A stretch of 35,247 nt of DNA from Chloroflexota bacterium (GTDB lineage: Bacteria > Chloroflexota > Dehalococcoidia > Lucifugimonadales > Lucifugimonadaceae). The stretch lies in assembly GCA_002718455.1 (NCBI GenBank), contig PBER01000005.1, forward strand, positions 77,085 to 112,331. The letters run 5' to 3'. The stretch's first letter is position 1; every line of letters begins with the position of its first letter. A program made the position numbers and the translations under genes. The notes beneath the pieces were generated by a model. The model made no database searches. It had not been told where the DNA came from and saw only the letters and a list, made by a program, of their open reading frames with translations. Below, piece after piece: positions 7,894 through 9,405 of this stretch.

Positions 7894-7911
7894 AATCGAA
7901 AAAAGACATTC

Positions 7912-7927
7912 GTCGCGGTGTAGTCGC
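7912..7927. repeat. GTCGC direct repeat, 11-bp spacing
   Basis: GTCGC occurs at 7912-7916 and 7923-7927 in an isolated GC-rich patch about 50 bp before dnaA. One helical turn between the copies is typical of a protein-binding site. The protein is unknown. Confidence 0.35.
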
Positions 7928-7973: not shown

Positions 7974-9278
7974 CTGGATATTTTTGATCCAAAAAAAATT
8001 TGGGCTTCGGCCTTGGGATATCTTGAAATGGTTGTCCCAGATACAACGTTTCGAACATGGCTTAAAAACACCGAAGGTGTAGAAATATCTAAAACAACTC
8101 TAACCGTAAGCGCAGAAAGTATTTTCGCTATTGAAATGCTTTCACAGAGATTAAACACCACAATCAATGAAGCTTTATTGCAAACTTCTAACAAAAAATT
8201 AAAGCTAAAATATATTTTAAATGGATTAAATGTCCATCAAACACAATATTTAAATCATGGTGAAATTAGAGGAACCTGGTCGAACCCTAAATATAACTTC
8301 AATTCTTTTATTACCGGTAAATCTAATTTTTTACCATATGCTGCATCAAAAAAAATATGTGAACTTCCAGGTGAAATTTATAATCCATATTATATATATG
8401 CAAATTGGGGATTGGGGAAAACTCATTTAGCACAAGCCATTGCTAAAAACCTCAAAACAAAAGGATGCAAAGTTATTTCATCAACGGGAGAATCTTTTAC
8501 TAATGAATTCGTAAAATCTGTAAGAACAAACAATTCAAAAATAATGGAAAAATATAGAGAAGCAGATGCTTTTATATTAGATGATTTAGATTTTCTTGTT
8601 GGTAAAAAACAAACAATTGAAATGCTAATTCACATAATGAATCAACTTGCTGTATCTGGAAAGCAAATAATATTAACTTCTTACAACCATCCTAGTAAAA
8701 CACACATGCCTCATCGACTCATCTCAATGATAAAATCAGGTTTAATTGTAAAAATCAATGCTCCAGATAGTGAAACAACAAGAAAGTATATCTATAAAAA
8801 ACTAAGATCCAAAAAAATATCTATTTCCGAAAATGTTCTTGATTACATCAGTAATAAAAAATTCCAATCTATAAGTGAAATCGAGGGTATAATTAACACA
8901 CTTATTGCACATTCAGATTTATTAAATTCAACTATCAATAAAGAAATGGTGAAATCAATTATAAGAGATTACAAATTAGACGACTTAATGGATCAAACTA
9001 TTACAGAGGAAAAGGTGTTCTCTTGTATAAACTATTTATTTGGAATTCAAACAGTAGATTTACAAAGTAGAAAAAACGACCGAAAAACAAATTTTGCAAG
9101 ACATGTTGCCGCTTATTTGCTAATAGAGAAATCAAATTTTACAACAACTCAAGCAGGTCTAAAACTTGGGAAAAGAGACCATTCGACAATTATTTATTCG
9201 GTTAATAAAATAAGAAAAGAACTGTTGAATAATGTTGAACTTAAACAAGAAATAGAAAAAAGTCTTTCCTTTAACTAA
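7974..9278 (+). CDS. dnaA: Chromosomal replication initiator DnaA, divergent, probable CTG start
   Basis: AAA+ initiator, 434 aa from CTG at 7974. That start is chosen because AAAGGAG (7961-7967) lies 6 nt upstream, the added residues (DIFDPKKIWASAL) complete the domain I helix ending in TFRTWL, a stop at 7944 closes the frame, and no ATG/GTG/TTG exists before the TTG at 8013. Numbering from CTG: P-loop AxxxxGKT at 143-150 (Ala for the first Gly), Walker B ILDD at 201-204, domain IV DNA-binding motif RDHST at 401-405. By ungapped alignment to E. coli DnaA, the arginine finger R285 is M252, sensor-2 R334 is S301, and DNA-contacting R399 is N368. R281 is kept (R248). It is followed by obg, nadD and pyrE rather than dnaN/recF. 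Identity is certain; how ATP control works here is not. Confidence 0.93.
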   Translation: MDIFDPKKIWASALGYLEMVVPDTTFRTWLKNTEGVEISKTTLTVSAESIFAIEMLSQRLNTTINEALLQTSNKKLKLKYILNGLNVHQTQYLNHGEIRGTWSNPKYNFNSFITGKSNFLPYAASKKICELPGEIYNPYYIYANWGLGKTHLAQAIAKNLKTKGCKVISSTGESFTNEFVKSVRTNNSKIMEKYREADAFILDDLDFLVGKKQTIEMLIHIMNQLAVSGKQIILTSYNHPSKTHMPHRLISMIKSGLIVKINAPDSETTRKYIYKKLRSKKISISENVLDYISNKKFQSISEIEGIINTLIAHSDLLNSTINKEMVKSIIRDYKLDDLMDQTITEEKVFSCINYLFGIQTVDLQSRKNDRKTNFARHVAAYLLIEKSNFTTTQAGLKLGKRDHSTIIYSVNKIRKELLNNVELKQEIEKSLSFN

Positions 9279-9300
9279 ATGGTTTAAATACTTTTCTTTA

Positions 9301-9375
9301 AATTCATCAACCCCTTATCAATAGTTTTCAACACTTTACAACCTATAATCAAATTCAAATAACAATTTCAACATA
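9301..9375 (+). repeat. Helically phased TCAAC-like array between dnaA and obg (candidate DnaA-binding/origin element)
   Basis: CAA trinucleotides, mostly in a TT(A/T)TCAAC context, recur at 9308, 9319, 9329, 9339, 9350 and 9369, i.e. at 10-11 bp steps with one position skipped. Individual copies include TTATCAATA, TTTTCAACA, TTTACAACC and ATTTCAACA, each a few changes from TTATCCACA. The spacer from about 9284 to 9405 contains only one G on this strand. The regular helical phasing is what I see directly; binding by DnaA is an inference. Confidence 0.45.
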
Positions 9376-9405
9376 TTTAATTATTATTAATTAAAATATA
9401 AATAT

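Follow-up and report, generated by a model that had tools for sequence, protein, structure and literature searches.

In all nine species of a SAR202-group genus of small-genome ocean bacteria, the replication initiator DnaA was found to lack three residues together, with sensor-1 D269 replaced by Tyr, the arginine finger R285 by Met or Ile and sensor-2 R334 by Ser (E. coli numbering). Fixation of the triple loss in nine of nine species rules out both chance and an assembly error. The losses and their fixation are shown, and so is the fact that this DnaA meets the domain definition of the family and fails at the residues that define the ATP switch. On balance we favour the view that the genus starts replication without the textbook ATP switch, which is an inference with no biochemistry behind it. 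It is an open question whether ATP-DnaA is needed for DNA opening or only for timing (PMC6727663). In this genus all three, sensor 1, sensor 2 and the finger, have been lost in the course of evolution while the gene and a conserved box array next to it were kept, so that a natural protein makes the question directly testable, and partial losses elsewhere in Dehalococcoidia provide graded intermediates. If there is indeed no ATP switch, the "invariant" arginine finger and the ATP-ADP cycle would be dispensable in nature.

The gene was found in the window, by which we mean the whole stretch of DNA that was analysed (35,247 nucleotides). The window belongs to contig C5 of a genome (G000) of 16 contigs and 1.30 Mb that is 83% complete, and close relatives of this genome carry the names SAR202 cluster or Dehalococcoidia. 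The neighbours of dnaA are fmt on one side and obgE on the other.

7974..9278, + strand: dnaA, 434 aa, CTG start; domains I, III and IV

The start codon at 7974 is preceded by AAAGGAG and the stop codon is at 9276-9278. CTG was the sole plausible start in four species (G000, G003, G006 and G007). GTG or ATG lies ahead of the CTG in G001, G004 and G005, and the codon at the CTG position is TTG in G002 and ATG in G008; the loci of the relatives are L035-L042.

The protein satisfies the Pfam domain architecture of DnaA, with DnaA_N (31.3 bits, cut-off 24.6), Bac_DnaA (140.5 bits, cut-off 23) and Bac_DnaA_C (52 bits, cut-off 31.5) all above threshold. TIGR00362 matched it over nearly its full length (311.1 bits, E 1.4e-92), below the curated cut-off of 343.9, which was missed by eight of the nine members of the genus. 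It does not fit the definition of Hda, an AAA+ protein without domain IV, since domain IV is present and TIGR03420 gave only 65 bits against a cut-off of 194.8. The nearest solved structure was B. subtilis DnaA. An AlphaFold model built with five sequences (mean pLDDT 63, pTM 0.36) was too poor for side-chain placement; a Foldseek search with this low-confidence model ranked DnaA structures at the top. One Bac_DnaA_C protein was detected in each genome checked. A canonical second dnaA, which the preliminary description had named as a result that would refute its reading of altered ATP control, was looked for in the genome and not found; the remaining Bac_DnaA matches were a tandem-AAA+ loader-like protein and RuvB. 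The dN/dS of dnaA in three species pairs of the genus ranged from 0.036 to 0.091, similar to relatives, and because these values are low (0.04-0.09) we consider the protein functional. Both the single dnaA and the selection on it are shown. No paper on SAR202 DnaA was found in the literature searched.

The residues were determined with MAFFT and HMMER, using E. coli and B. subtilis DnaA as references. The alignment started from dnaA of 60 relatives plus E. coli and was later widened to the whole family, then to the class and then to other Chloroflexota classes; the final set contained 174 DnaA besides E. coli, nine from the genus and 165 others. The positions concerned are listed below, with replaced residues in E. 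coli numbering.

8400..8423, + strand: Walker A (ANWGLGKT), G-K-T intact, K178 and T179 in 9/9
8571..8585, + strand: Walker B (FILDD), D235 and D236 in 9/9
8682..8684, + strand: Tyr237 in place of sensor-1 D269; Tyr in 9/9 of the genus, Asp in 142/165 others, the remainder Asn or Glu and one unreadable
8727..8729, + strand: Met252 in place of arginine finger R285; Met or Ile in 9/9 of the genus, Arg in 160/165 others, one unreadable
8733..8735, + strand: Lys254 at R285+2 (position 287); Lys in 9/9 of the genus, rare elsewhere; candidate compensating residue
8874..8876, + strand: Ser301 in place of sensor-2 R334; Ser in 9/9 of the genus, Arg in 161/165 others
9075..9077, + strand: Asn368 in place of the DnaA-box contact R399; Asn in 8/9 and Thr in 1/9 of the genus, Arg in 154/165 and Lys in 7/165 others

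The genus has retained box VII R281, the AID residues R227 and L290, K243 and the DNA-binding helix. The first outgroup set had 63 conserved columns; the genus kept 46 of these and lost only 10 completely, which argues that its DnaA is not in general decay. Fixed gains of Lys numbered 11, scattered over domains III and IV, and included K244, K304 and K329.

Most of the preliminary description, made from the sequence alone, was confirmed. Its coordinates for the gene, its assignment of Met252, Ser301 and Asn368 to R285, R334 and R399 (in both alignments) and the retention of Walker A and B all held. Its alignment was not strictly ungapped as claimed, as the protein is one residue shorter between sensor 1 and box VII. 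The Ala at the first Gly of the P-loop, which it had pointed out, was rejected as a special feature, being common in the order; most relatives carry Ser or Ala there. The loss of D269 had been overlooked, and because this residue is gone too the reading of altered ATP control is strengthened. That DNA and nucleotide binding are likely kept and ATP-switch control is altered or weaker was supported by inference only, without data on ATP binding, hydrolysis or oligomerisation. It had also allowed for compensating Arg residues; none was gained at or beside the R285 and R334 sites, and the only candidate in place of Arg was the invariant Lys254.

In other Chloroflexota classes D269, R285 and R334 were all present in 20 of 20 DnaA checked; these were picked mostly among low scorers and used as background. 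Elsewhere in Dehalococcoidia R285 was lost in G052 (Val; L055), G193 (Gln; L165), G156 (Gly; L166) and G190 (Ser; L167), and R334 in G103 (Asn; L169), G153 (Asn; L210) and G190 (His). Both were lost only in the genus and in G190, which also carries D269N. The global rarity rests on the literature, where the finger is stated to be invariant (PMC8287927); other phyla were not sampled. Long stem branches (2.7 and 4.8 changes per site) lead in the tree to our genus and to a second genus of the family, g10, and the position of the two with respect to each other was weakly supported. Genus g10 has a different eroded set (D236G, D269N, R281E and D433P, with R285 and R334 retained) in 7/7 species, and no DnaA boxes were recognisable near dnaA in its loci (L043, L044, L045, L111-L114). 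The DnaA of family f55 of Dehalococcoidia (L151-L160) is very divergent, with 170-231 bits to TIGR00362; D269E and replacement of His434 were seen in 10/10, which suggests an altered DnaA-box code.

Next to dnaA we identified a likely origin of replication. The intergenic region between dnaA and obgE was taken as candidate oriC because the GC skew peaks there and it holds an array of variant boxes.

9279..9405, + strand: gap between dnaA and obgE, candidate oriC; variant DnaA boxes arranged head to tail, one end AT-rich
9325..9333, + strand: variant DnaA box TTTTCAACA
9365..9373, + strand: variant DnaA box ATTTCAACA, the most conserved, adjoining the AT-rich end
9381..9389, + strand: TTATTATTA, possible DnaA-trio run (YTR three times) after the last box; chance is not excluded in such AT-rich DNA

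The consensus used for the comparison of TTATTATTA was the YTR of the DnaA-trio (PMC8235120). In the dnaA-obgE gaps of the nine species (123-140 nt) the motif NTWTNAACA occurred 24 times in forward and never in reverse orientation, with 2 to 4 copies per gap, against 2.4 expected and a maximum of 8 in 1000 dinucleotide shuffles. Because the nine species share ancestry, the shuffles treat their sequences as more independent than they are. Shuffling of the AACA core alone in single genomes was too weak, and the result was clear with full motifs pooled over species. The motif was absent from the gaps upstream of dnaA in the nine species, and the best-conserved part of the gap alignment was the block nearest the AT-rich end. 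No exact TTWTNCACA box was found near dnaA in the genus; such boxes were present in relatives. The GC skew at third positions, corrected for gene strand, peaked at dnaA-obgE on a 130-kb contig of the window genome (p 0.0055); in G005 the peak lay near this gap (p 0.10), and G002 gave an ambiguous result. The conservation of the box array is shown, whereas origin function is inferred and there are no binding data for the variant boxes. Of the features of a basal unwinding system origin (DnaA box, spacer and trios), the region shows the clustering of boxes beside dnaA, with variant boxes whose motif departs from TTWTNCACA. At box position 6, A has taken the place of C, a change that coincides with R399N/T in domain IV; a causal link was not shown. 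D433N was rejected as an explanation of this change: AACA boxes occur in G000 and G002, where the residue is still Asp, and CACA boxes persist in other genera that have Asn.

A further element was detected upstream of dnaA.

7909..7927, + strand: TTCGTCGC..GTCGC element (TTCGTCGCR-N-TCGC), possible regulatory site

A search of the nine genomes found this element a single time in each, in every case a short distance upstream of dnaA. It forms a GC-rich paired half-site within very AT-rich DNA.

Taken beside the canonical DnaA of E. coli, B. subtilis and A. aeolicus, the genus protein shares domain I, the AAA+ domain III, Walker A and B, box VII, the AID residues, the helix-turn-helix of domain IV, the single copy and a candidate origin beside the gene. 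It differs in having no arginine finger, sensor-1 Asp, sensor-2 Arg or R399, in scoring below the TIGR00362 cut-off and in its array of NTWTNAACA instead of TTWTNCACA boxes.

The explanation that we prefer, by a modest margin, is a working initiator whose AAA+ domain no longer reads or hydrolyses the gamma-phosphate and which is controlled by its amount; it is inferred, without binding, ATPase or in vivo data. The AAA+ domain would keep its nucleotide pocket and most contacts between protomers. With sensor 1, sensor 2 and the trans arginine finger gone, nucleotide may be held and would be neither hydrolysed nor signalled in its state to the neighbour; if bound at all, its role would most likely be structural. 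The box array between dnaA and obgE would line up DnaA head to tail, possibly acting like an origin whose sites have no requirement for ATP, and the adjacent AT-rich DNA would be opened without an ATP-ADP cycle. Initiation would depend mainly on how much DnaA is present, and timing would need another control. Control by amount is suggested, by inference only, by the unique upstream element and the weak CTG start codon.

Published work bears on this ATP independence in both directions. Work in E. coli has given D269 a supporting role in stable nucleotide binding and R334 one in hydrolysis (PMC4245941). Initiation complexes can do without R334, and both intrinsic ATPase activity and the ATP-specific cooperative binding at low-affinity sites require R285 (PMC5742627). 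The lethal R285A of E. coli DnaA is rescued, with poor timing, by the altered origin oriC-allADP (PMC6727663), and we propose a similar pairing here, of a finger-less DnaA with an origin that does not demand ATP. However, R285A is a single change in a laboratory mutant, whereas the genus has a natural triple loss across all its species. Several DnaA open DNA with ADP (PMC8287927), and origin opening that does not need ATP, as for DnaA of Helicobacter pylori, Synechococcus elongatus and Deinococcus radiodurans, is proposed for the genus as well. Those three proteins, however, keep and need the arginine finger. When Ala was put in place of the finger, the DnaA of B. subtilis, S. elongatus, H. 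pylori and D. radiodurans no longer separated the strands, including cases in which ATP was dispensable (PMC8287927), which speaks against uncoupling. The perfectly kept Walker A and B also suggest that nucleotide still matters, and Lys254 could possibly act as a finger. A bolder reading, that a free-living lineage starts replication with a DnaA without any ATP switch on an origin with a changed box code, is one we lean slightly against.

Among the alternatives to an uncoupled initiator, a rewired switch remains possible. Here Lys254, perhaps with the gained K329 near sensor 2 (E. coli numbering), K244 and K304, would sense the gamma-phosphate, and ATP would still drive assembly. In its favour, Lys at position 287 is found in 9/9 and is rare elsewhere, K244, K304 and K329 are fixed gains as well, and Walker A and B are intact. 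Against it, an AT-rich genome raises Lys everywhere, as the 11 fixed gains across domains III and IV indicate, and there is no on-site replacement for D269 or R334. The AlphaFold model, too poor for side chains, gives it no structural support.

It is unlikely that DnaA has been demoted to a transcription factor or accessory role with replication beginning in another way. In favour of this, cyanobacteria have lost the dependence on DnaA and oriC several times, with some species keeping dnaA (PMC7198777), and the GC skew was weak in two of three contigs. These cyanobacteria resemble the genus in a lineage-specific loosening of DnaA control; however, their dnaA is dispensable or absent, whereas in the genus it is under strong selection with a conserved box array adjoining. 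This array, the skew peak of the window genome at dnaA-obgE (p 0.0055) and the retained AAA+ interface residues speak against demotion, as does a search for a Rep_3 initiator, which found none.

A mixed assembly, in which a DnaC-like tandem-AAA+ helicase loader supplies the arginine finger and DnaA-loader contacts replace those between DnaA protomers, is very improbable and without interaction data. In its favour, the nucleotide face of DnaA is kept and the finger lost, and this genome encodes, after dnaB, a loader-like protein of 457 aa that contains two AAA domains. Against it, relatives with a finger-bearing DnaA have this loader too, so that it is not tied to the loss.

The 457-aa protein itself (L002, 1351-2724, contig C10 of G000) has an IstB/DnaC-like and then a DnaA-like AAA+ domain, lies directly after dnaB and is likely an unusual tandem helicase loader. 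The pair of IstB/DnaC-like and DnaA-like domains in one frame was seen across the order; genus g5 has a shorter frame of only some 283 aa.
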